From: Paramacrobiotus metropolitanus
Lineage: Eukaryota; Tardigrada; Eutardigrada; Parachela; Macrobiotidae
Assembly (NCBI RefSeq): GCF_019649055.1
Contig: NW_026570297.1
Location: forward strand, 1-64,000
Reading direction: 5' to 3'
Length of the DNA: 64,000 bases
The position numbers were made by a program, and so were the translations under genes. Positions 99 through 25,200 of this stretch are shown in pieces. A model generated the notes under the pieces. The model had not been told where the DNA came from and searched no databases. It saw only the letters and a list, made by a program, of their open reading frames with translations. Positions within the stretch are counted from its first letter, which is position 1. Each line of letters begins with the position of its first letter.

Positions 99-739
99 CT
101 AGAATTCTTCCGAACGGTTCAGCGTCCCATCTTCTTCTATCATTTCTTCAATATAGTAACGAAATTTTGAAGGAACACCGTCAAGATCTTTAAAGTCTAA
201 AGGGTCTATATCGTGTTGAGTCTGCACAAAACCAAGTAACCCTTTCAATCGGTCATCGTTTTCGGAAAAACGCAGCTTGCCACGCAAGCTATTAAACGTT
301 ACTTCCGTCTTGAGCGTTACAGGATTATAACGTATATTGAACACCTTTGTGGTACTGTTATTTGTGCGAAGGCGTGAGGAGTAACATTGCGACCTTTAAG
401 TCTACCGAGTTTGGCGACTGTCGCTCAATTACGTCAATTAGTGCCTTCAATGTATATAGACCCGGTGGAATGATGATCGTATTCTGAACCGATGACAAGG
501 AAGTGTCACTGATGACATCGTACTCGTTAACAGTTAGTTCTTGCTCTTTTGGTATGTTGTAGATTGAGTTTGTATATTGCAATTCCACCAAAACCCGTTC
601 CCACCGGCCCGATAAAGGAAATTGGAATTTTTAGTTTAGTCTTCCACATTTGCGCACTGTTCTTGGGATACATGTCCATTGACGCATCGCTTGGTAATGT
701 TACGTAAAACGGTGTACTGTTTCCAACAACACTAGCCAT
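99..739 (-). pseudogene. Polinton-associated structural-type protein (TLPSDAS family), broken by two frameshifts
   Basis: The start is the ATG at 739. The first 40 or so residues contain the block FYVTLPSDASMDMYP, typical of a protein found in many metazoan Polintons/adintoviruses and thought to be virion-associated. The reading frame shifts near 590-605 and again near 345-358; the three pieces 739-527, 591-358 and 344-99 together follow the family layout, ending in an LLGF-type strand. The stop at 99 may be premature compared with longer family members. The function is unproven. The assignment rests on remembered family similarity, not on a search. Confidence 0.6.
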
Positions 740-1324
740 TTCCGTCAGCTACTTTTGATAGCTCTTGCTCATAAAACTTTCCAATTACACTGGGTCCACC
801 GTCGGCAGGTTCCACTTCATACACAGGTACGCGATGCTTGATTACCTTATTCACTCGATATAGCTTTTTTGTGTACTTCACATCAGCGCCTTTCTTAAAA
901 AGCTGCTTTTGCAAACGAAGACGCACTGTTTCTCCGTCCTTAAATAGCGGTACCTTAGCTTTGCTTTTGTTATTACTGTTGGACTGTAATCGCTGAAACA
1001 CTAAAAGCGAATTTTCTCGATTGACGTCATTCGGCGCCAATCCATGCGCCGTGTGAGGTGTGCTGTTGTAGCTGTGAATAATGTCCTGTAACTTGTCATA
1101 ATATTTTACACTCCCATCACGAGCGGTCATCAGTCGCATGAGACGCTCTCGTAACGTTCGGATGAATCGTTCTGCCATGTTAGCTTTAATTTCACAGTTC
1201 TCTTCAGAAAACATAACGACGCCGTTCTGTTTCATGTAGTCTTGAACTGGTTTGTTGTAAAATTCACGCCCTGTGAACGAATAATACAGTTAGTTTGCGA
1301 CGCTTACGACGGTTCCATCCTATG

Positions 1325-1357
<33 letters not shown>

Positions 1358-1774
1358 AGTACCTCTATCCACTTGTAAATACATAGGTGGTCCATACAAA
1401 CGAGAAAAGGCTTTCTCCAGGGCAGGAAGAACGTATTCACTGCTTTTTTTTGTCAGCATTTCGCATGCTACTTTTTTGGAAAAACTGTCCACAACAACCA
1501 GCAGAAATTTTTTATGTTTATTCTGCTTTGCGTAACGGGACACATCCATCAGGTCAGCCATGTATTGTTCACCGAACTGTATTGAAACTACCGGATTTCT
1601 GCGGAATTTCCGCCGAGACGGCTTATGTAAATTGTAGGCGTCAATTCCTTGCAGAAGCTTTAGGGCTTTGTCATGCTGATTAAGTTCGCTTGACACGGTT
1701 TGATGCTTCCGGAATCGTTCCACTCCCCCCAGGCTTGCCACTTGCGCCGCACTCACGTACTCCGCTTCTCCCAT
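732..1774 (-). pseudogene. Polinton integrase (rve/DDE family), interrupted
   Basis: The N-terminal part (1774-1304) has the HKPSRRKFRRN segment followed by the RNase H-fold integrase core. The first catalytic Asp is in YMADLMD and the second in LQVDRG. Just after the second Asp the frame runs into a (TG)n tract at about 1,322-1,357, which encodes a meaningless Thr/His run. The C-terminal part (1235-732) is in another frame. It carries the catalytic Glu in NMAERFIRTLRERL and an SH3/chromo-like tail (FKDGETVRLRL). The intact enzyme would insert the linear element DNA into host chromosomes. All three catalytic residues survive, but the microsatellite and frame change make this copy non-functional. 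The 3' end overlaps the start of the TLPSDAS gene by a few bases. Confidence 0.85.
1322..1358. repeat. (TG)n microsatellite inside the integrase gene
   Basis: A run of TG dinucleotides with one interruption (gtttg) lies between the second catalytic Asp and the catalytic Glu of the integrase. It replaces or interrupts the codons expected there. Confidence 0.95.
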
Positions 1775-1907
1775 CTTTAGTTAGGTCAACTTGGACACTG
1801 ACGTCAACTTTGTTTTTGTTTTGACCAAAGCTATTGTCTTTACTGACGTTTGAGTCTTCCGAATCTTTATCCCCAGCACAGCATGATGAAATAAAGGTCA
1901 GCTTCAT
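1680..1907 (-). CDS. Hypothetical small acidic/polar protein of the Polinton element
   Basis: A 75-residue open frame from an ATG at 1907, overlapping the start of the integrase in another frame. It is rich in Asp, Lys, Ser and Gly, and I recognise no motif. It could be a separate small gene. It could also be the displaced N-terminus of the integrase, since the integrase frame starts at 1774 without the usual longer leader. Confidence 0.3.
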   Translation of the reverse strand: MKLTFISSCCAGDKDSEDSNVSKDNSFGQNKNKVDVSVQVDLTKDGRSGVRECGASGKPGGSGTIPEASNRVKRT

Positions 1908-3008: not shown

Positions 3009-3699
3009 TTTTAGGCTCAGTGATGGCAGATGATCAGTATAAATTCTCCTTGTCTCTTTAGGAAACAAATGCGATCGCAGCCTTAAATAAGATGGACAAG
3101 CCGGGGTAAGGTCAATTAAGAGCGGTTGATAGTTTTCTGACGTGCAAGCCGCGTACGCTTGCGCAAGGCACTTTAGTTTTGTTTGACGTTGTAAGATATC
3201 GATCTGGCCGAGGTCCCGAGCATTCTTAAACAGCACCATATACTGACAATTTAGTGTTATATCACGCATCGCTTTTCCTTGTTTGTACAGGTTCTGGGTA
3301 ATATAAATAACGCTCAGGTTTTTATGGTGAATTCCTTGCGTGAACAGATTACTGGCCTGCTCATTTTTTGCCATCTCGTGTGCCAAATCATCCACAATCA
3401 GTAAATTTGTCACCTCTTTATCGAAAAAATCCTCGTCCGAAAAAGGTCACTCAGTCCTTTCACAAACTCTGTTTCTGGACACTGAACTTTCAAAGCATCG
3501 TATCCATTCTGCCACTGATTGTATGCATATACCACTCTTCTCGGAGTCGAAGTCATCATTTCTTTTCGTTGCTCGATAAGGCGGAAGACAAAGACGATTT
3601 TCCAACCATTGTAGGACCGCAAATCATCATTCCAAAAGGAGTTACGAGTTTTGGCTGACTTTCCAGCTCCACGAAATTGTTTTGAATTACTGCTGTCAT
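2712..3699 (-). pseudogene. Polinton packaging ATPase (FtsK/HerA type) with an in-frame C-terminal small-protein domain; frameshifted
   Basis: The likely start is the ATG at 3699. The P-loop is in the first piece (MICGPTMVGKSS, coded by about 3,640-3,600). The middle piece (about 3622-3410) and the last piece (3413-2712) are in other frames. The last piece contains a Walker B strand (LLIVDDL), the sensor-like VIYITQN and the YMVLFKN block typical of Polinton/adintovirus genome-packaging ATPases. The last frame runs without a stop into a conserved small Polinton protein starting at Met 3008. Two frameshifts, near 3,590 and 3,415, make this copy inactive. Its start codon overlaps the start codon of the divergent TBP-like gene. 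Confidence 0.85.
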
Positions 3700-4217
3700 G
3701 GCGGCATCAATAAAAATATAGTCGCAGTTGGTAAACTGAATTGTGGCTTTGATCTTCAAGATATTGCAGACCTTCTCCAGATTCCGTACGATCCCAACAT
3801 TTTTTCAGGACTTACTATTCGCCGAATGCGTCCATACAAAGTCACTGTCAACTATACAGCAATGGTCGGATTACCGTAAACGGAGCTGTTACCGAGCGTA
3901 ATGCTGAAGAGCTTCTCGAACTCTATTGTAACGATATGCACATGTTAGGCTATACCGATGCGTACGTTACGGACTTCGAAATAGTTAATGTAGTAGCGTC
4001 TTGGGACATGAATAGACCATTGAAACTAGATGACGTCTTTAAAAAGCTGCACTGCTACAGGCCTTGTTATGAACCTGAACTGTTTCCTGGTCTAAGCGTC
4101 CATCTACCGGAAGCAACTTGTGTAATTTTTACCTCTGGTAAAGTTAATATTTTGGGTGCAAAGTCGGAATTGGGTGTGCGTACTACGGCAGCCGAACTTC
4201 GCTTGCTACTGTTTTAA
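3698..4217 (+). pseudogene. TATA-binding-protein-like gene inside the Polinton element
   Basis: Both saddle repeats of TBP are visible. Repeat 1 includes NIVAVGKLNCGFDLQDIA and YDPNIFSGLTIRRM; repeat 2 includes FEIVNVVASWDM, CYEPELFPGL and VIFTSGKVNILGAKSE. These are the diagnostic TBP blocks, in the right order and spacing, giving a core of about 170 residues, close to the normal TBP core. The DNA-bending Phe residues are present in repeat 2 (ELF and VIF) and at NIF in repeat 1; the fourth position appears to be Tyr. The first ATG (3,698) is one frame off, and another frameshift lies near 3,858, so this copy cannot make the full protein. It is the only recognised plus-strand gene among minus-strand element genes. 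Divergence from canonical animal TBP suggests an element-borne, fast-evolving gene. A captured host TBP-like fragment is the alternative. Confidence 0.85.
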
Positions 4218-4355: not shown

Positions 4356-4960
4356 TCATATTTCTTGCGGCGGGCGATCTGGTCTGCAGGACGTTCCGCT
4401 ATGCCAGTCATGCTCAGCTTGTGGGTCGTCATGCGGCTCCCAGTTTTCTAACTCTAGTCCACAATGAATACACTTCACTAGGTCACGCAATCCCGTGTAA
4501 AGAAGCCGGCTCTCGCAAAACGCGCCGCTGACGGTGTACGCAGTGTCCAGTTCCGGTGTTGAAACGAGTGCAGACGGTATACGAACCGTCTGAATTCATG
4601 TTGCAGCCGATAGCCTGCTGCAGCACGCCCAGGAGTCGCTGTGTCCGTTCTTCTGGTAGGCGCTCCCGGGGGATCCAACCAAACCAAAGTGTATCCACTC
4701 AAAGCGCCCAATGGTAGACGATACGGCCTATCCGCCGCAGGCGCTGAAGTCGACGCAGTTGCTGGTTCTGGCCGTAGCGGTGGTTGTGGCGGAGTTGGCG
4801 TGGCTGGTGACGCTCCGGTTTCAGCGCTTGGTACTGAAGCTGAGTCCGGTACTTGCGGTGGAACAGACCTTGTTGAGCTTACTGGAGAATCTTGCAATTC
4901 GCCATCTTCAACCAGAAGAGAGTCTCCACCACTATCGTAGTCTTCGTTGACTTCAGACAT
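4356..4960 (-). pseudogene. Single-BIR (IAP-like) protein with a Ser/Pro/Glu-rich N-terminus; one frameshift
   Basis: The ATG at 4960 opens an acidic, Ser/Pro/Thr-rich N-terminal region of about 90 residues, then a BIR-type fold begins (RLHSFQHRNW, then ARFARAGFF). At about 4,505 the frame shifts. The new frame carries the rest of the BIR: a CxxC pair in VKCIHCG, NWEPHDDP, then His and Cys ligands, with a stop at 4356. All four zinc ligands of a BIR are therefore present across the two frames. BIR proteins of viruses and hosts bind caspases or their activators and block apoptosis. A TATA-like box (minus-strand GGTATATAA at about 4,998-5,006) lies some 40 bp upstream and overlaps the stop codon of the next gene. 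Confidence 0.75.
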
Positions 4961-4995
4961 TTTACACTGCCGTACTAACCGCTTGCATGTTTCTC

Positions 4996-5007
4996 GGTTT
5001 ATATACC
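4996..5007 (-). promoter_or_regulatory. TATA-like box before the single-BIR gene
   Basis: On the minus strand the sequence reads GGTATATAAACC, about 40 bp upstream of the ATG at 4960. The TATAA also supplies the TAA stop of the preceding small ORF. The same GGTATATAA core precedes the ATG at 6637, and a related GGTATTTATA precedes the ATG at 9231. Confidence 0.6.
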
Positions 5008-5238
5008 GGCCATCGGTATGGTAGCGTTAGGGTCACCTTTATAGGATCGATACCGTTCAAGGATCATTTCCCACCATGACTGATAACCAGCCCGACGCGA
5101 TACTATTTTACAGCAGTACTGTGCGACCTGCATGACTTTCCCAACATACAGGCCTAGGTCAGAGTCACCGTTCACAGGTCGGGGTAGCGGAAGCCGATAG
5201 CGACCTCTCAAAACTGTGGCTCCCACCAGCTTGAACAA
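4999..5238 (-). CDS. Hypothetical 79-aa protein of the Polinton element
   Basis: An intact small frame, basic in its first half and aromatic in the middle (QSWWEMILERYRSYKG). I see no recognised motif or signal peptide. Its stop codon lies inside the TATA-like box of the BIR gene, suggesting compact viral-style gene packing. Confidence 0.4.
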   Translation of the reverse strand: MFKLVGATVLRGRYRLPLPRPVNGDSDLGLYVGKVMQVAQYCCKIVSRRAGYQSWWEMILERYRSYKGDPNATIPMAGI

Positions 5239-5256
5239 TTCGGGTTAACTGGTAGA

Positions 5257-5532
5257 CTAGAAAAAATCTTCTGGCTTCTTAGGCTTGGGGACTTCATACC
5301 CCACGTGGAGAATTTTGCATAACCAGCCATCGACCATGATGTTCATACCCGGTGCCAAATCTAAACAATTGTTTTTTTTTATTTGACTTTCATATGACCT
5401 TCTGTTTTTATTTGTTTTACCGTGAATTTCCTTCACAACGTCCCTGACAAACATCTCAGTGTCACTGTTAAAGATTGAATTATCACTTGCCAAACCGCCG
5501 AACACCGATGGAGCACACAGGAGGGAAAACAA
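5257..5532 (-). CDS. Hypothetical small protein of the Polinton element, possibly frameshifted near its start
   Basis: The open frame contains LFSLLCAPSVFGGLASDN and ends in VPKPKKPEDFF. No ATG is available in this frame at the expected place. An ATG in another frame at about 5549 reads a few residues and would join by a shift near 5,535-5,545. The function is unknown. It sits in the same minus-strand array as its neighbours. Confidence 0.4.
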   Translation of the reverse strand: MFSLLCAPSVFGGLASDNSIFNSDTEMFVRDVVKEIHGKTNKNRRSYESQIKKNNCLDLAPGMNIMVDGWLCKILHVGYEVPKPKKPEDFF

Positions 5533-5630
5533 TCGTCTTGAACTCCATGGTTGTTTTTAATAAAAAAAAACGACGTTCTAGAAACTTGCAGGTCGTTGCC
5601 TTATACTCTGAAACTTGAACTCCTAAGGCC

Positions 5631-6082
5631 TTAAATAGACTTTACACCCGCAGCCGTATCGGTCTCTAGTGCTATCTTAATTTCTTCCAAGAAACCGTGC
5701 AGTATATGATACAGCATATACTGGTCGTAACTCTTAAAGTGGATGGAGAACCCATGAGCGTTGACTAATGCCATTCTTGAACAATCCAGTTCGTACTCTA
5801 TTTCCAATGTCCAAGGTGATTCCGGTTGTGTATCTTTAAATTTTTTAACCATTTTGGACTTTTTTAATAATTCATGGATGTCGTATGCTTCTGCAGCACC
5901 AAACGTCCAGGACACTCTCGCCCTGCCTGTTCGTCCACAAGTTGCAATCGCTTAAAACGGCCTCCCTTGCCCGTTATGATATTAACTTTTGTACCTCGTT
6001 TCAAATCCCAGCTCGCTTCGCATTCTCCCTGGTCTAACGGTTTAATCACCGCTCCGTACATTATATCTGATGTAGCGTCCAT
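5631..6082 (-). pseudogene. Small conserved element protein, paralogue 1 (frameshifted)
   Basis: The first piece starts at the ATG at 6082 (VMYxAxI-type N-terminus: DIMYGAVIKPL, then SWDLKRGTKVNIITGKG). The second piece lies in another frame (PESPWTLEIEYELDCSR, then QYMLYHILHGFLEEIKIAL). The shift is near 5,870-5,910. The neighbouring gene at 6212-6637 has the same pattern of residues in both halves, so the two are tandem paralogues of about 150 residues. I do not recognise the family. Aromatic and Glu positions alternate in the second half and could form an amphipathic fold. Confidence 0.5.
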
Positions 6083-6211
6083 TGTGTTCGATATGGCGTT
6101 CGTTTTGTTTTGCAGTGTAAAGATATTCTCTGATTAACGATATGGTTTTTTCTGTACTATATACAACAACCACCTTAAATAGACTTTATTCAATATTGCC
6201 ATCAATAACAG

Positions 6212-6637
6212 CTAGCCAGCACACGCTTCATTTATTTCGCGCTCATACGCCTGTAGAATGTTACACAACTTCTTTTGGGCCAATAAAGGCAGCTCCAGCA
6301 CCATCTCTGGATGATTTAACAATAACTTTGAGCAGTATGTTGTAGCTTCCACTTCCATGTCCCAGCTTAATCCTTCGACGGACTTCAGCCGGATGGATGT
6401 CTTTCGCGGAGTCAACGCTTCGTGTAGTTTCTTTGCCTCCATCGGTAGAGATGGATGAATACTAATCGCTCTCCCTGTTGACCTTCAATCTCCATCCAAT
6501 CAAACTTCCCTTGAACGTTATCACGTTGGCCTTTACATTTCCAGCCAAACTCCACTGCAGTTGGCTATAGGAACCTGCAAAGGCAAAATCTCGGCCTCGT
6601 ACATTACCGCTAATGTGTTGTCGTACATCTGCGCCAT
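6212..6637 (-). pseudogene. Small conserved element protein, paralogue 2 (frameshifted)
   Basis: It begins with an ATG at 6637 and an AVMYEAEILPL segment matching DIMYGAVIKPL of its neighbour, and continues after frame breaks into LSWDMEVEATTYCSK and LCNILQAYEREI, which match WTLEIEYELDCSR and LYHILHGFLEEI of paralogue 1. At least two frameshifts lie between about 6,440 and 6,560. The function is unknown. A minus-strand GGTATATAAG box at about 6,684-6,693 lies some 50 bp upstream of the ATG. Confidence 0.5.
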
Positions 6638-7956: not shown

Positions 7957-8262
7957 TTAACATAAAACAAAAAAAATTTCAGTAGCAAGCCACAGCTTGT
8001 TCTTTTTTTTATCAAAAATACACTGGCAAGATTTTTTTATGACGGAACGACACATTGGGCAACCATCACAGTCCTTCACACAACAGTTGCAAACAACAAA
8101 ATGACCACATGGATATAGAACCTGCGTGATGACATTTGTGTAACAAATTTTACACAGCTTTTCGTCTTTCACTTCGGCCAGATGATCTGCTGGAGAACGT
8201 AGGAATATTCGTCGCCAATGCTCTCTTACTGCCCGCAGATGTTCCTCGCTATTACCCTTCAT
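7957..8262 (-). CDS. Small RING-finger protein (IAP-like C-terminal module)
   Basis: An intact 101-residue frame from the ATG at 8262. Residues about 36-75 form a C3HC4 RING: CKIC, then CGHFVVC, CNCC and CPMCR. RINGs of this type in IAPs recruit E2 enzymes for ubiquitin transfer. The ORF follows the two-BIR gene on the same strand, in the BIR-then-RING order of an IAP. It is in another frame and 385 bp away, so it is either a separate gene or the decayed C-terminus of one IAP. A TATA-like run (CTATATAAAG on the plus strand, near 8,319-8,328) lies about 57 bp upstream of its ATG. Confidence 0.7.
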   Translation of the reverse strand: MKGNSEEHLRAVREHWRRIFLRSPADHLAEVKDEKLCKICYTNVITQVLYPCGHFVVCNCCVKDCDGCPMCRSVIKKSCQCIFDKKKNKLWLATEIFFVLC

Positions 8263-8647
8263 TCTCGCATTTCTGTTAATACCACAAAACTGATTTACCG
8301 TTCAGCAATGCAGGGCCACTATATAAAGCCAATAACCTTTCACGCCTTTCGCTGTCCCGGCAACCCTGTTCAAGCCAGGGAACAGACCAGGGAAACCCCA
8401 GCTCCGACTGGGCCATGATTCTCGCACTCGGACGCCGGCGTAAGGCTTCCATCACGTGCTCCCAACTATAGAACTGTAAAGCTTGTGAATTTTTTTTCTT
8501 CGGCCACGTTGTCTGGCCATTACACAGCGCGTCTTCATCTACAATATCGAAAGCTTAGTTGTAATACGGTATTTACTCTTTTACTGCCAATCTAACCTTC
8601 TTTAGATGCATTTCTATATTTGTTCTGTTTCTTCTGCTGAATCGTAT
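8263..8647. other. Spacer between the RING and BIR genes
   Basis: No convincing coding frame. It contains a TATATAAAG run near 8,320 and may be the promoter region of the RING gene. Confidence 0.5.
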
Positions 8648-9231
8648 TTATAAAACTTTCCCCTTCTGCTCCATCAAATACGGACACTGCGGTCTTAAGG
8701 CAGCATGAATCTCCCAAGGGTCTTCATTTTCTCTCCAGCAATCTCTTCCCATGCCACAGTAAAACAGCGTGTCAGTATACAATAGTTTATAAAGTAAAAA
8801 CCCGCTGCAGCCATTTCTTGTGGATGTTGATGTGGACTGCTTGGCCAACGAGCAAAAGTAGCGAAGCGGCTTTCATAGGATTGCATTTTTGGGCAGTAAA
8901 CCTTGGTAATGATGTCCTTGCTGTACACCTCGAATCCAGCAAATTCCTCCTCACTAGCCTCTCCATCATAAACGTCTGCGTCCGCTTCGGTGTCACTACA
9001 GCTGGTAACTTCACTTTCTGATCTCGACATTTTACAATCCGGAAAATAAATTTTATGTGTTGCAACCGGTGTACCCTTTATGTTCCGTGCACTAATAGTT
9101 CCAAGACAATAACTACACGTAATTAAGTCCTCATAACCAGTACATTCAAAGCCAGCCTTAGCCAGTTCCAAAGGGGTCCAAGATGAACACCCCCATTCAA
9201 GGAACGATAATATACGATTGTACAAGTCCAT
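8648..9231 (-). pseudogene. Two-BIR IAP-like protein; frameshift in BIR 2
   Basis: The ATG at 9231 starts a protein whose first BIR spans about residues 5-70: RILSFLEW, LAKAGFECTGYEDLITCSYC, then a His and Cys in HKIYFPDC. An acidic linker (SDTEADADVYDGEASEEEF) follows, then a second BIR from about residue 118 (YESRFATFARWP, MAAAGFYF). The frame breaks near 8,790. The remainder (DPWEIHAALRPQCPYL) is in another frame ending at 8648. BIR 2 lacks a clear CxxC pair in the visible frames. IAP-like genes are known in several insect viruses and, as I recall, in some adintoviruses. Minus-strand GGTATTTATAGC lies about 40 bp upstream. Confidence 0.75.
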
Positions 9232-9267
9232 CAGCTAGTAATTAACTTTCCGTCAGTTCCTATTTTG

Positions 9268-9279: not shown

Positions 9280-9403
9280 ACCGTTGCATTCAAGCTTTCA
9301 TGTTCAAACACGTTTCTCTATTTAACACATATTTACCCTATTTTTACGAATTTTTCTAGGTCATTAGGAATTTTTTCAGAATTTTCTAAATTATTTTTGA
9401 AAA

Positions 9404-9445
9404 ACGGGACGTCATCCCGGGACGCTCTTATCAGCGTCCCACATC
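9404..9445. repeat. Hairpin-forming sequence near the inferred end of the element
   Basis: GGGACGCT-cttatc-AGCGTCCC is an 8-bp perfect stem with a 6-base loop, preceded by a second small inverted pair (CGGGA...TCCCG). It lies just before homology to the duplicated host exon resumes. Confidence 0.6.
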
Positions 9446-9787
9446 TAAAAGCCGGTCGAGACAGGCATATTACTACTCTTGCCAACAATCCAGGCGTTTT
9501 CAGTGCTTGTGAACCAGGTGGAAACTTACCCAGCAATGCTAAGGAAACATGTCCGCTTTATGACGGAAGAGTGTACTACTGTGGAATTCTTTACTACATG
9601 GACAGAAGAAACAAGAATAACAAAATCCCGATTACCCGAAGCTGCATTATGCCGATTTATGCTACCCCTCCCGGTTTTACAGTTGCACAATCCTTATTTT
9701 GTAATACTATCAAGGACGTCAATGCCGACAGACGCTACGCCTGCATCTGCCGTGGGTCGTATTGCAATAATTTCAGCCTAGCAGCGA

Positions 9788-9820
9788 TTGGCATTGGCAT
9801 TGGCATTGGCATTGGCATTT
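9788..9820 (+). repeat. (GGCATT)5 hexanucleotide repeat
   Basis: Five tandem GGCATT units encode Gly-Ile repeats in copy A, at a position where copy C has only GGAATC. Confidence 0.9.
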
Positions 9821-15716: not shown

Positions 15717-17230
15717 TGCTTACTGTCTGCGCAGGCGATCCAGGACTAGACTGCTGGTTCTGTACCACCGACAACACTAATACCAATACAGAACCAGACT
15801 TGTCAGAGCTTGCCACAAATCGAGCCATTTTCAGTGCTTGCGGACCTGGAATCTTAACAACGAGCGCATTACGGAGCTGTCCACTCTATGACTTACTACT
15901 GTGGAACCTTATTACTGTGGAATTTTCTACTACCCTAACAAGAAAAATAAATATAACATAAGATACCGATTTCCAGACGCTGCGTTCAGATTTTTTCTTC
16001 TCGTGGCTATCCCGTCTTTACAGCTGCACAACCTCTGTTCTGTCATATTCGGGAAGACGATGCGGGTTTAACATACACAAGTGTACGCTATTCCTGCATC
16101 TGCAGCGGGTCTTATATTGCAATACTTTCTCTCTAACAGCAACTGGCACTGCCGTCAGCAACGCGGATCTAACAAACAATGAGGTATATCATGCATAAGT
16201 GTGCTCAACAATTTATCGGTGTTTCTCAGTAAGTTTGAATTGACACCTACATATAAACAATTTTGCTTTATGGATAATTTCTATCCAGAGCTCATATCCA
16301 TCAACTGCTTGCCTGATTAGTATCGCCATTTTTTATTTTGCTTTTCTACCCGGTTGCGTGTCTTCTTAAAAGCGAATGAAAATTTACTGGTGTCTTAGTC
16401 TGGAGTCGCTTTCAGTCATATTATTATTACGGTCGTCATGCTAAACTTTAGAATCGAGTCCCTTTCGTACATTCCGAATGCCTTATAACGTCTTTCGCAA
16501 AACATGTACCTGCCGTGCCAAGTAGCTTTTGCAAATGCCTTCGCAATACCTTACGAAATGCCTTTCGTACCTTCTTACGCTTGGTGCAGAAAACAATTTT
16601 TTACAAAATGATCAAGTCAAAAATTGCCACTAAACAGTAATTTTCTATCTGAATTTTGTCCTCATTTTACCTCATTATATTTATTATTGATAAGTAGATC
16701 CCAACGATCGATCGAAAGTATATATGACGTGGCGGTAACACTTTTATGTACAGAAGAGCCCAGTACCAACTGGATCTTCCTTCTCACCAAACAATGTTAT
16801 TATGCCAGGCAGTGTGGCAGGCAGTGTATCAGGCAGTGCGGATAACCCGGCTCTACAATCAGTTACTGCCCCTGCATGGTAATGAAGAATCTGGAGATGG
16901 AGTGGCGGCTAGTGGACAAGGCCTTGCCTCAGTCAGCAAAGGTGGGGCGACAAATGAGAGCAGTAATGCTGCGGCTGGATCAAAAGGTAAGCACGTTTCG
17001 ATGTGATCTGTTATGCTCACACAAAGTCACATGTAAACATCGTGACCTTTCGCAGAGAGTGGTCCAAACATGCTCATTACAATCTCCGCTGTTGTTGTTG
17101 CGGTACGTATGTTACCGTTGTGCGACAGATCTTGGTTTGCACTGCATTTATGAATTTAACGGGCCATTTTGCTGCTAATCGGAGGTATCGTGCTCTATAA
17201 ACACAACCATCATAACAGATGACGTCGTCC
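15700..17230 (+). pseudogene. Copy B of the Ly6-like membrane-protein gene (frameshifted, acceptor lost)
   Basis: The extracellular exon (about 15,700-16,183) keeps a hydrophobic signal-like leader (VSLLLIILLTVCA) and the start of the domain (GLDCWFCTTDN), then loses frame near 15,890. The C-terminal cysteine motif is still visible (SCICSGSY) in another frame. The linker exon is 16,754-16,986 with a good GTAAGC donor. The membrane exon is 17,056-17,102 with GTACGT. The final acceptor is CGG instead of CAG at about 17,160, and the tail ends early. This is a pseudogene, but its leader shows that the family is secreted/membrane-targeted. Confidence 0.7.
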
Positions 17231-19263: not shown

Positions 19264-22200
19264 ATGTGTGTTTTCTGGCATTTCCTCTGTCTGAATTCGG
19301 TCGATAACAGTTGCGGTAAGGAAGCGGTTTTACTTTACCCGCTAATTTTCCAAACAGGCGCTTCAGGACTAGACTGCTGGTTCTGCACGACTGACAACAC
19401 TAACAACGAGCCGGAGCTGTCAAAGCTTGCCAACAATTCCACCATTTTTAATGCCTGTGAACCTGGAACCTTACCCAGCACCGCAGTAGAGCATTGTCCA
19501 CTCGATGACCTTCGTTACCCTTTCATGTGTGGAATATTCTACTATCCGGACATGAGAAACAAGAATAACAAAATACCGATTTCCCGACGCTGCATTCAAA
19601 AGACTTATTCTGCCACTCCCGCCTTTACAGCTGCACAACCGTTATTCTGTTACACTTGGTTGAATGCTGGCCCGGAGGGCACACGCTACTCCTGTATCTG
19701 CAGCGGGGATTACTGCAATAATTTCCCTCTAGCAGCGATCGGAATCGCCGTTGACAACACAAATTTATCAGATTCTCAGGTATTACGATTTTTTTAAATT
19801 CGTGGCCACTTTAAAACACCGTTATCATTCTTTGCCAGCTGCATATTAGCAACCGACAGCCGATTAGCCGGCTGTGCAGTTATAACGACCCACTGAAAGA
19901 AAAATACCTTTCGACTTGGCGCCACAGTAAACGACAAAGTCTCAAATCGTACGGTTACGCACGGACTACGGTTTCACCCGACGATTCTACGGCTACCGTA
20001 CTGTTACGGCATGAATAACCGAAGTGACCGCACCATACACGGTTTACCCTATTTAAACTGTTTTCGGCTTACGGTTACTCACGGAAAATTCTTGACCTTG
20101 GTCGCTTTTTATATAGTCCCTTCGGTTTGCACCTACCAAAAAGCGTTCAAATTCCCAAATAAAATTAAGAAAAGTCGGAACTGGCGCAACGGTTCCATTG
20201 TTCTCGCTCAGGGATAATAATTGTGCGCCCCTTCCTCTTACCTACGAGCATGCGATGACCCGGATTAAACATTATAAAAAGATACAGTACTCACTCGCTC
20301 ATGACTGTACAGTGTACAGATAGAAGTTCAGTACTGCAATACTGTAACGAGAGTAATCGAATGACCGCCTTGTTTACAGTGTTGTTGGTTTTCCTTACTG
20401 TTCATTGGTTGTTGTTCTCACCGTGTAACTGAGTGATTCATCCTTCTTTTTCTCTACACTTTTACCGGGTAAATGTCTAAGAGAATGGAACACACTTTCA
20501 TTTTGAGAATCCTCTGAATGGATGCTTGCCACGCTTGCCTAGCTTGTAACCCGCTTGTCCTGCTTGTACGCTTGTTAATTAAATGCCTGAAAACGACGTT
20601 GCTTTGTTTGACTCCTCGGGATGATGCACCCATCATCCCGCTCGTCATTGTCACTGTAAAACCACTTCCGATTCACTGCTGAGCTTACGCCCGGCAGTGC
20701 CGACATTTCCATCAACAGCCGACACAACATCGTGGTACGGTCAACACGCCAACCCACTAGAACGCCGGCACAACCGCCCGCGTTACATGGCGCTCCTGGG
20801 TTAAAACCAGCCCGGAAGCTTCACATCGCAACCATTCCCACCATCCCCACTCGCTCCACCGACTCTCCTTGTAGCCGGATCAAGGCAGCCAAGCGCCTGA
20901 ATTGCCCGGCCCACAGACGCACTCCAAAGAGGAGCGTTCGCCCATTCCATACCGGACCGGAAATCCCGTCCTACCTGCAGCATTACAAGATTCCACGACT
21001 GCAGTTAGGTGAGTAACGATAATATTATTCTGTTATGTCGAGGTTTCTCTTTCTCTACTGTATCTTAACTGAATGCAAGTACTGCACTTACATACGCACC
21101 AATTACCAGTCGTTTTCTTTCTGTGCAAGCACTGCAATCTACGTGCGTAATTAATTACAGTTCATCTTGATTAACCGTGTAATGGCGACTTGACTGGCGC
21201 AGATAGCCACATAGGTAGTACACCTTCGCTGTTTTCTCTGCCAGAGCATCTCACTCCAGTAGTTTTTCGAGAACGTTATTGAATTTGCCGGCACGGCACC
21301 ACAGTTTGGTTCTCTGTAATCTGTCCCTTACACTACGTCTGTCACATTTGCTTTGTCTTGCAACTTTCACATTCCAGTAGTCTATCGTTTTGGCGCCGAT
21401 TTGCACTCAGATCAAACCCATTAGCTGTCACGCTCCGCGTACGCAATGGAATCTTTAAAGCAAGACCTTAATACTGCATTCACTCGGATTGCAGTACGTG
21501 ACATTTGTCGAAATCTCAATGTGCAAATCTCTGCAAAAGACACCAAGGCCAAAATGATAAACGCGCTCGCTGCACATATGTTTGTAAACCACATTACTGT
21601 GGATCAGCTCCAGCGCTCCCGGTCTCCGTCTGCTGATGAGTCAGCTGCGCCGGCTGTGAACACTGTACAGAGCAACGCCGCATCGGCCACACGTTTGCAC
21701 ACTCAGAGAGACAGCCTACAAGCACAGGCGACTGCAGCGCGTACTGAAGGCGCTCAATGCAGTTCCAGACCGCACGTCTCACAGTACCCTTCACATATTC
21801 CAGATTTCGATCTGGACACAGTCGACGCAAGTACAGGCAACTTCCGAGACATCCGATCACTATATCGCCGCATAGGTGAATCGCTGCCAGAACACTTGCT
21901 TGAGGATCTCGACAATTTGTTGAACCTCTCGCATGCTGAATCAGTCAGCCAGTTCCGTCAGCAAGCAGGGCGCACACAAGCCGGTACACACAGACTTTCC
22001 CGCGCAGCATCGCCCGCTATTGTACATGGTGGGCCTAATGCACGCATTCGTTCACCAGACGTCCAAGTGCACGAGCGGTATACAGCACAACCATCCGCTC
22101 ACACTGATGAACCGGCAGCACACAACGCCTTCGCACAGACAGGACGCACCGATCAGAACAATCTTGTCGATATCTTGCGCAGTTTGCGACTGGACAACAA

Positions 22201-25200
22201 TTCCAAGTTGAATGTCAAAGACTTTAAAATTGAGATTTTTAATAATAAGCCGGAATATACAATCACGGCCTTTTTTTCAGCAGTTTGAACGGGCAGCAGA
22301 CACTCTTAGCTGGGACAACGACCGTAAAGTTAAAATGCTACCCAACTATCTCGGTGAAGCACCACGCCGTTACTTTGAAGGTTTATGGCCTGTTAACAAA
22401 TCATACTCGTATGATCAGTGGAAATCAGTTTTAGTTGAGCGCTTTCTACCAGAAGATTACGAAATGATTAAACGACTTGAGTTATCGAAAAAAGTTTTCA
22501 AGAAAGGCATGGACATCAACCAGTTTTTGGACGAAATGCAAATACTTTTTCAGGACATTGATGCACTCATGCCTGAAAAGTATAAAATCGCGGAAATAAA
22601 TCGTGCGTTCTCTGATGTCCCTGAGTACCGAAAGTTTCTGGCTATCACAAAAACCAGCACGGTTAGTGATATCCGATCCGTACTTACGAAACTCGCTGTT
22701 GTAGATCGCCCTGACGCTAGCGGGTCTGAATCCAACCCGATCGAAGTTAAACATTACAGTGAACGTGGTACACCGCAGCAGTACAGCACTACCCAGCGCT
22801 CCCGTTCACCCGGTCCCTACCGATCGCGTAGTCCGCCCTTTTATCGGGGCAGTGCAGAGCGTCCTAGTCAGTATGGTGACCGTAGCCGCTATCGCCAATC
22901 AAGCAGCGATCGCCCGGTTGACCGCGACAGGCGCCGGTCTGATGACTCTCGTGACCGTTTCCGCTCGCGCAGCCGTGATCACACTGATACACGTTATCGT
23001 CACCACGCATACAGCGCCACCTCTGACCGATACCGCTCGGGTAGCCGCAGTCGGGATGACGCCCGGTACAGTACACCCGGCCGCACCGGCTATCGTTCAC
23101 CAAGCGCCGATCGCTTTGGTCAGCGTGGGCGAAACTCCGATCCCCGCCCGCCGTATGGTGATCGATATGCACGTGAGCACCGCGATGCACGATCAGACCG
23201 CCCCAGTGGTCGCGAGCGCCGGTCATCCCGTGATGACCCGAAGCGCATACCGCCCAAGTTTATTGACTTCGACAGTTACCGGTTGGACAACGGCAAGATC
23301 TTTTGCCCGAAATGTCATGATTTTGCTCATTCGTACAAAGAGTGCCCAAAGGCTGCTGCCGACGATAAGTTTCGCATAGAACGTATCTGCCCCCAAGATG
23401 TCAAGAGCAAAGTACAGCGCGATTACGATGACTATGTGCAGTATCGCCTTTCGAAAGAGGGCAATGCGTTCTGGGCTACCGCTCAGGGAAAAGAATGAGG
23501 CCTTACGATGTCGGAGGTCCGTACGGCCGTAGCTATCAACCTCCCAAATTTTACTCGCAAGCTGAAATTCACACCTTTGACGTACAAATGCACACAGATA
23601 CAATACCTATGCTGCCCAGCACGGTCAGCCCGTACGCCGGCCTCCCAATGCCTCAAACTGTCAGTCCAGCTTACATACTCATGAATATCAATGGGCACAA
23701 GTTGAAAGTACTAATTGACACTGGTGCCGGTACTAGCATAATGTCTGAACCCGTCGCGGCGCGTCTAAAGCTACAGTTCCGGAGGTTTGTAAAAGGTGCA
23801 CCCGAATTACAATTCGCGACCATCTCTGATCGATTTACCGCACGTGAATCGTATTTCGCCGAAATCACAATTAGTCTTAGCGATCGCAAAATCAGACACT
23901 TAATCTTTATCGTTTGTGATATACCGTACGATATGATCATTTTGGGTAATGATTTCCTTAAAGAACATGACATATGGATAAGCAGCCGCAACGGTGTATT
24001 GTGTTTCGAAAACGTTTCGCCAACTCGTAAAGTACACAAGTTGCTGTCCCGCGAGCCTATAATATCAGACGTACAGGATATGATGGTGGCTGATACACTA
24101 ATCCCGCGCACGCGTTTTGTTCAGCAGCACCGTTTAGACGTCTGTAAAGAACGAACTGCTGACACAACATTAAACCGCCCACTTCCCACACTTGTCGAGC
24201 TGCCGCGTTCACGGCCATCATCGCCGCTGGCATCTCTGTCTGGTTGTACCGCGCAGTCAATAGCACACAGCACTGCGCCAGGTACTGTACTGTCCAGCAT
24301 GCCAACAGGGTCACTTCCGCCCTCAGCCGTCCCTCTACTCGTCGACAGTACAGTACAAACATGCAATACTGTGCAGTGCAGATCGGCCAGCACACAAACA
24401 GACTTCATCCTGGAACCCCTTTCCGTTACTGAGTGTGAACGAGCACCGGTCACACATTCACACATACCCTTATACAAAATGCAGATTCCCTCCATTCTCT
24501 GTCCTGCAGGCTCGGTAACGCAGCACCAACCGATATGCTTCCGGTTGATAACAATTACAGTACCGAAGTCTGGTCGACAGCCAGTGCACCCACTGCACCG
24601 GACACTGCTATACAGTCCCTATTAATAACATTTATATGGAAAGACAGTTTTATATGTTTCGGATGAGTGATTCACAAAAAACCGCATCCGATACACAGGT
24701 TTGCATGTCGGTTCATGCAAATCGCTTTCAGCGCTGACTGATAACGCCTGGATAGTTATAATTTTATCTCGTTCAGCATGAATATTGTCGTGATTCGGCA
24801 AATTTCATTCGAAAAATACTAAAATAATTTTAGCTAGCAAATTCACCTTAAGCTTCTACAGCTTCCCATAAACTTACAAGATTAATTAATCTTGTTGAAG
24901 ATGTACGAGCATCATTTGCACGAGTTAATGTGTATACGTAGAAGCTAAGTCAATTGCGATACTTCGACCCTATTACTAAAAAAATTTGTATTACACCCTG
25001 AAAGATTGGGCATTCTTGTTTTTTATGCGTAGTAATCCGTAATTGATTACGGAATGTGCGCTTAACACTGTAATTATGCATAAGCGCAAATCACCTTATT
25101 TTTTTCCCTGCATGCTAGCCAGAAGCTTAGCCAAAGATGTAATTATAATATATTTTATTGCATTCCAAAAAACTCCCGGTAGTAATGGTAGCGCCAAATT

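Follow-up and report, generated by a model that had tools for sequence, protein, structure and literature searches.

A non-host TATA-binding protein gene regularly carried by Polintons of the tardigrade Paramacrobiotus metropolitanus

TATA-binding protein (TBP) genes are found in several groups of viruses. TBP is present in 59% of mirusvirus genomes and in 0% of Nucleocytoviricota in the same comparison (PMC10132985), and Yellowstone Lake phycodnaviruses encode TBP together with TFIIB (PMC4602308); the initial annotation of the present locus took TBP to be known in some large DNA viruses. TBP is also known from endogenous elements of a green alga that are putatively derived from mirusviruses (PMC10675990). 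Mirusviruses resemble the tardigrade elements described below in being DNA viruses with a TBP of their own, but are much larger, herpes-related, and planktonic. Phycodnaviruses likewise encode a general transcription factor, but are large algal viruses that also encode TFIIB, whereas no TFIIB-family match lies near the tardigrade elements. The haloarchaeal viruses HRTV-9 and HJTV-2 also encode TBPs (28–31% identical), but are viruses of archaea.

With respect to animals, the tardigrade elements share with metazoan Polintons (Mavericks) an integrase, PolB, an adenain-type protease, AGT...ACT ends, and 6-bp target duplications, but add TBP and, in other families, PC4-like genes. No animal Polinton with TBP was found in the literature searched, going by titles, beginnings of abstracts, and counts; a term search for TBP in papers on Polintons and animal viruses (PMC11071308, PMC11071296, PMC10120064, PMC8097293, PMC12220804, PMC3671162, PMC4028283) was likewise negative, and a paper on tardigrade transposons mentions Maverick once and lacks the term TATA (PMC11071193). 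The earlier statement that no TBP was known to have been described in an animal Polinton is borne out within the literature searched, and TBP in animal Polintons is apparently new to that same extent.

The window analyzed here is a stretch of 64,000 nucleotides at the start of contig C77 (NW_026570297.1, assembly GCF_019649055.1) of the eutardigrade Paramacrobiotus metropolitanus, and the genome searched comprises 169.8 Mb in 533 contigs. The window contains the right 9.5 kb of an element, the left end being off the contig, with the following features.

99..395, minus strand: ORF matched in copy L025 only, by sequence comparison
358..630, minus strand: ORF downstream of the integrase; its cluster is present in 9 of 21 loci compared
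732..1780, minus strand: rve-type integrase in two pieces (PF00665, E 3.2e-9), homologous to the single-ORF integrase of L020
1960..2670, minus strand: conserved ORF between integrase and ATPase, with matches in L012–L014, L016, L020, L025, and L028
2712..3706, minus strand: fragmented ATPase facing TBP head to head; assigned to the packaging type by a weak match (Pox_A32, E 0.045) and homologous to open ATPase ORFs of other copies
3698..4217, plus strand: TBP gene with both saddle repeats and a broken frame (PF00352 on two pieces; PDB TBPs; intact 177-aa copies elsewhere)
4478..6484, minus strand: several ORFs common to the window and copy L025, with no Pfam family over its cut-off
7957..8301, minus strand: RING finger ORF (PF13920, E 2.7e-11), possibly the C-terminal portion of an IAP-like gene
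8695..9234, minus strand: BIR (inhibitor of apoptosis) ORF (PF00653, E 1.2e-17)
9370..9477, plus strand: right terminal inverted repeat, ending ...TACTACT (40 genome matches, 14 inverted pairs; ends read in 10 pairs)
9477..9478, no strand: junction of element and host DNA (three other copies match up to there; homology to host DNA within the window from 9478)

The two-repeat TBP gene begins with an ATG at 3698, and its stop codon ends at 4217. Searched separately against Pfam, the first piece (ORF 3580–3879) matched PF00352 with E 1.3e-5 and 25.4 bits, and the second (3753–4217) with E 1.6e-19 and 69.9 bits, both above the curated cut-off of 22.9 bits. Against PDB sequences, the second piece gave a best E of 9.4e-18, and the first 35 of its 36 matches are TBPs or TBP-containing entries. 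Both saddle repeats are therefore recognizable, as originally claimed, and a chance match is ruled out by the E-values and by the presence of two repeats in order. The window copy itself is broken, its frame shifting near the start of the gene and a second time within repeat 1, and is unreadable from its own ATG. Among eight window-family copies examined, a single open frame of 177 aa is preserved in five (L025, L037, L043, L044, and L047) and broken in three (the window, L045, and L046).

The initial annotation had placed the gene between a packaging ATPase and a BIR gene. An ATPase-like gene indeed lies head to head with it, but the BIR gene is not adjacent, the intervening ~4.5 kb being filled by ORFs without a Pfam family and by the RING ORF. 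The Pox_A32 match of the ATPase is weak and below cut-off (E 0.045 for the window piece and 0.0069 for L093); the ATPase gene family is conserved beside TBP and integrase. A relative of the 358..630 ORF, L014:7464-8450, has no Pfam match. At the right end of the element (7957–9234, minus strand), the BIR ORF is followed by the RING ORF, the two perhaps constituting one IAP-like gene, apparently broken; a BIR relative adjoins TBP in L003–L006.

The right end of the element is at 9477, with homology to three other copies stopping at 9477/9478. Matches to its last 108 bases number 40 across the genome and form 14 inverted pairs. The ten pairs whose ends were read span 21.0–31.6 kb, and all ten start with AGTAGTA and finish with TACTACT; a 6-bp target site duplication is exact in six of the ten, agrees at 5 of 6 bases in two (C218 and C3), and is absent in two (C280 and C116). 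PolB (PF03175) was found within the terminal repeats of the C218, C53, and C19 copies, and an adenain-type protease (PF00770) over cut-off (25.9–26.1 bits) inside the C3, C17, C111, and C218 copies. By its ends, target duplication, integrase, PolB, and protease, the window-type element is a Polinton, as the initial annotation had held. Copy L025 is 98.4% identical to the window element across 8,007 bases. In another family, a candidate for the double jelly-roll major capsid protein (L009:6997-8442) gave no sequence match in Pfam or PDB.

The host DNA to the right of 9477 resembles other window stretches from base 9478 on, which indicates insertion of the element in one member of a repeated host gene family, its nature as a gene being judged by eye. 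The stretch 9478–9805 is similar to 15809–16151 and 19426–19756, a host family of short cysteine-rich ORFs that appear three-finger-like by eye. Further along the window (21425–24625), ORFs resemble, also by eye, the Gag and aspartic protease of an LTR-type retroelement.

Across the genome, 150 of 493 candidates were scored, giving at least 150 TBP-domain matches; 138 of those scored have no in-frame stop. They merge into at least 122 loci, which ten further copies found by DNA bring to at least 132; one of the 132 is the host TBP (G000:C4:406165-406662, 115 bits), leaving at least 131 non-host loci, a lower bound that includes one unclassified locus (L048 on C66). Window-type TBP is enclosed by 12 of the 14 inverted terminal-repeat pairs of the window family, the two pairs without it being on C48 (0.4 kb) and C330 (11.6 kb), and other Polinton families carry TBP as well; the absence from other copies that had been named as evidence against such a gene is thus not what was observed. 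In addition, TBP lies beside element genes in all 22 loci read at 8 kb. Of 146 ATPase matches, 90 have a TBP no more than 12 kb away—divergent at less than 1 kb in 37, on the same strand at less than 1 kb in 7, and at 1–12 kb in 46—with none listed at the remaining 56. Two of these 56 loci were read (C1:1032631 and C129:238620), and both carry a more divergent TBP (PF00352, 87–89 bits), so the TBP counts are lower bounds.

Three arrangements recur. TBP is head to head with the ATPase in the window, L012–L014, L016, L025, and L028, with an ORF, termed X, between the two genes in L014, L016, and L028. In the second, X is followed by TBP, and a PC4-like gene is divergent across X (L009–L011, L015, L017, L018, L020, L022, L023, L026, and L027); in nine loci, this arrangement includes PolB tail to tail with TBP (L010, L011, L015, L017–L020, L022, and L023). 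In the third, TBP is just upstream of the ATPase on the same strand (L024, L092, and L093). X immediately precedes TBP in many families, and its protein matched nothing in Pfam or the PDB; in L017 (3650–4858) and L023 (3211–4431), the conserved X frame (LDADWF...HSHGLLW...LEELGCP) is continuous with TBP as one long open frame, a possible fusion. Two irregular loci were also seen: at G000:C88:438290-459975, two TBP copies lie in opposite orientation ~10 kb apart within one terminal-repeat pair, and L021 (G000:C140) is an inverted duplication in which, within 4 kb, each strand has disrupted frames of both TBP and ATPase.

Purifying selection on the element TBP is shown by comparisons among open copies. 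The dN/dS ratio was 0.06–0.37 in the 15 of 18 pairs for which it was computable, 13 of them at 0.11–0.29, synonymous sites being saturated in the other three. Replacement changes were in deficit in 14 of these 15 pairs (p 0.025 or less), these values being uncorrected and the pairs, which share copies, not independent; the exception was L025/L047 (p 0.13, 9 changes).

As to origin, the TBP of L025 is 29% identical to the corresponding stretch of the host TBP, and a protein search with the intact copy found three environmental relatives, two of them 51% identical and the other 31%. In a profile search, 66 proteins ranked above the first cellular TBP; one is from this tardigrade, and the other 65 are environmental or unnamed. 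A careful tree (85 rows, 173 columns) united 19 tardigrade element TBPs with 39 environmental ones, hand-picked from those 65, in a 58-row clade with support 99/96; the same 58 rows came together in a quick tree of 94 rows (SH-aLRT 83), from which nine rows, chosen for their long branches, had been dropped for the careful one. The sampling covers neither animal TLF/TBPL1 nor named giant-virus TBPs. Element TBPs L024 and L035 fall outside the 58-row clade, grouped with one unnamed protein. Holding L025 together with 11 eukaryotic TBPs (the host and ten others) was rejected by the AU test (p-AU 4.5e-8), as was holding all 21 tardigrade element rows with eukaryotic TBPs (p 2.9e-13), indicating that the element TBP is no copy of the host TBP. 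The grouping of the 19 element TBPs as one tardigrade lineage was also rejected (p 0.0017), which implies that several TBP lineages predate their presence in this tardigrade or were acquired separately. Among the viral contigs scanned for carriers of the environmental TBP relatives, no relative was found; some environmental TBP contigs measure 12–28 kb, which would fit the size of a Polinton.

Taken together, it is close to certain that Polintons of P. metropolitanus carry a selected, non-host TBP as a regular gene, and this gene is best explained as that of a virus-type TATA-binding protein within the regular gene set of the tardigrade's Polintons.

Cellular eukaryotic TBP, represented by the host copy on C4, is like the element TBP in its two saddle repeats, kinking aromatics, and groove asparagines. 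The host gene seems, by eye, to have introns and an N-terminal extension, whereas the element TBP is one ORF. In what follows, yeast TBP numbering and contact roles were assigned to aligned positions, and the DNA-intercalating aromatics are taken to be the two pairs F99, F116, F190, and F207. In the 58 rows of the main clade, F99 is kept in 57, F190 in 58, and F207 in 57, position 116 being Y in 56; the groove asparagines N69 and N159 are kept in 56 and 57, and V71 and V161 in 53 and 45, respectively. Other groove positions are changed: L114 to Q in 55 rows, V122 to T in 56, T124 to N in 58, L205 to V in 54, V213 to N in 56, T215 to L in 55, and V203 to T in 44. Six of ten presumed groove-contact positions are altered and near-fixed. 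At 12 positions, element and cellular TBPs are each near-fixed yet different, 6 of the 12 being at presumed DNA-contact positions.

Two of these changes, V203T and L205V, are presumably two of the three that define the laboratory altered-specificity TBP mutant m3; the third m3 position, I194, is also altered in the element TBPs, mostly to S, R, A, or T. According to a review, TBPs with three second-repeat changes recognize TGTAAA as well as other variants (PMC10005294). By itself, V203T is not special, since 2 of 11 eukaryotic rows and 9 of 20 archaeal-like or other rows likewise have T there. Owing to the altered DNA-contact surface, the sequence preference of the element TBP is probably shifted or relaxed compared with that of the host TBP. 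At the positions presumed to contact TFIIB, E188 is kept in 53 of 58 rows and E186 in 24; at those presumed to contact TFIIA, K138 is kept in 6, and Y139 is Y or F in 57.

Of 122 TBP loci, 57 have a divergent PC4-like gene less than 3 kb upstream; at the others, a PC4-like match was found 3–12 kb upstream on the same strand at 7 and not at all at 58, with 0.014 matches within 12 kb expected by chance per TBP locus. The gene at L017:5030-6040 matched Pfam PC4 (PF02229) with E 1.2e-4 and 22.0 bits, below the cut-off of 25, and the family profile retrieved human PC4 structures from the PDB at E about 1e-5. Of the ten matches in a genome-wide Pfam scan for PC4, one is the presumed host PC4 (C41, 81 bits); the other nine, at 27.4–33.2 bits (cut-off 25), coincide with PC4-like profile matches, and eight of them adjoin a listed TBP. 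For the window-type element, no PC4-like gene was found on C77 among the matches listed, and a Pfam search of ten window and L025 ORFs gave none. A profile search of proteins found four PC4-like proteins, all from Paramacrobiotus, among the 8000 candidates scored. A conserved ORF beside the TBP of L092 and L093 had seemed PC4-like by eye, which searches did not support.

The promoters of the PC4-like genes were examined in hand-picked regions, 22 of 27 having a recognizable PC4 start and L055, L058, L060, L011, and L022 being dropped. Nine of the 12 promoter families have one TATA-like box (TATAAAA, TATATAA, or CATAAAA, a pattern picked after inspecting the sequences) 49–121 bases before the ATG. 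It falls wholly inside the tested interval of −125 to −45 in eight of the 12, a number reached in 0 of 500 shuffles, and outside it in one; the other three lack such a box in 330 bases, and the control interval of −280 to −200 contained none in any of the 12 families. No TATA-like box was detected on either strand in the head-to-head gaps of the window type (40 bases in L014, L016, and L028; 66 in L025); in three of these four loci, a single reverse match occurs no more than 100 bases from the gap. Separately, short, family-specific inverted-repeat arrays with GTAATC or GGATCA arms were observed between the PC4-like and X–TBP genes in L049 and L051–L053. Upstream of the PC4-like gene, there are seven copies in L049, four in L051, and two in a third family; these arrays exceed the shuffle control (none reached in 200) in three of 12 families and do not in the other nine. 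They are possibly binding sites or an origin. A genome search for the TFIIB family gave six matches at three loci (C45, C100, and C28), on contigs without a listed TBP or ATPase match, and none near the elements, so the element would depend on host TFIIB.

With a probability of roughly 0.6, judging from sequence, the element TBP serves promoter recognition for the element together with host TFIIB and RNA polymerase II. In the active phase of the element, it would bind and kink TATA-like sequences in the element's own promoters and recruit host TFIIB and RNA polymerase II, and the element genes would thereby be read independently of the supply of host TBP/TFIID. In many families, the PC4-like protein from the divergent neighbor would probably assist, as a coactivator or single-strand binding protein. 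In favor of such a function are the retained kinking residues, the purifying selection, and the PC4-like neighbor with TATA-like boxes seen in other families. Counting against it, the TATA boxes could be read by the host TBP, the window-type gaps contain no TATA-like box and window-type elements no detected PC4-like gene, E186 and K138 are kept in only 24 and 6 of 58 rows, and the window copy itself is broken. A more far-reaching version, in which these Polintons and related environmental viruses would have a partly separate promoter system, with a natural altered-specificity TBP feeding host RNA polymerase II onto virus promoters, is suggested only tentatively. Its parts would be the rebuilt, fixed groove surface (L114Q, T124N, V213N, T215L, V203T, and L205V), the PC4 partner in many families, and, in some, the short inverted-repeat arrays between both genes.

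Other roles can be set against promoter recognition. As a decoy or competitor, the element TBP might bind TFIIB or TATA boxes and so weaken host transcription or silencing; retention of E188 on the TFIIB side (53 of 58) against that of K138 on the TFIIA side (6 of 58, though Y139 is Y or F in 57) would suit this, altered groove contacts could give a non-productive binder, and the BIR ORF suggests that host-directed genes may be present. The near-fixed kinking residues and groove asparagines, and the TATA-like boxes kept in the promoters of most element families examined, make such a role unlikely. Protein-primed replication requires a single-strand binding protein, an activity that PC4 domains have; the PC4-like protein might accordingly act in this way beside a TBP that bends DNA architecturally for replication or packaging, and TBP does adjoin the ATPase or PolB in many loci. 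Since the spacing of the TATA-like boxes ahead of the PC4-like gene is that expected of a promoter, this role is considered rather improbable.

Two further explanations concern the provenance of the gene. That it is a domesticated host gene family without a role for the element would agree with the many copies keeping open frames, but TBP is enclosed by terminal repeats in 12 of 14 pairs and adjoins element genes in every one of the 22 loci read, where no selected copies outside elements were seen, and domestication is thus very improbable. The single ORF of the element TBP is what a recently captured retrocopy of the host TBP or a TBP paralogue would show, but the two AU rejections (4.5e-8 and 2.9e-13), the 29% identity to the host TBP, and the much closer environmental relatives (51%), in a tree without the fast-evolving paralogue TLF/TBPL1, leave it almost no likelihood; for the host TBP itself as source, tree and AU test amount to a refutation, and the branching within host TBP that the initial annotation had named as counter-evidence did not appear.

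A general transcription factor supplied by a self-replicating animal transposon or virus is relevant to the activation of Polintons in the host nucleus, and also to the evolution of viral transcription machinery. With near-fixed natural changes at DNA-contact positions, the long-standing question of how far TBP specificity can drift while function with TFIIB and RNA polymerase II is kept becomes directly testable. The tardigrade gene model named "TATA-box-binding protein-like" (P0061) is an element gene, and others may be too. For the Polintons of this tardigrade, the element TBP may help to choose which of their genes the host RNA polymerase reads.
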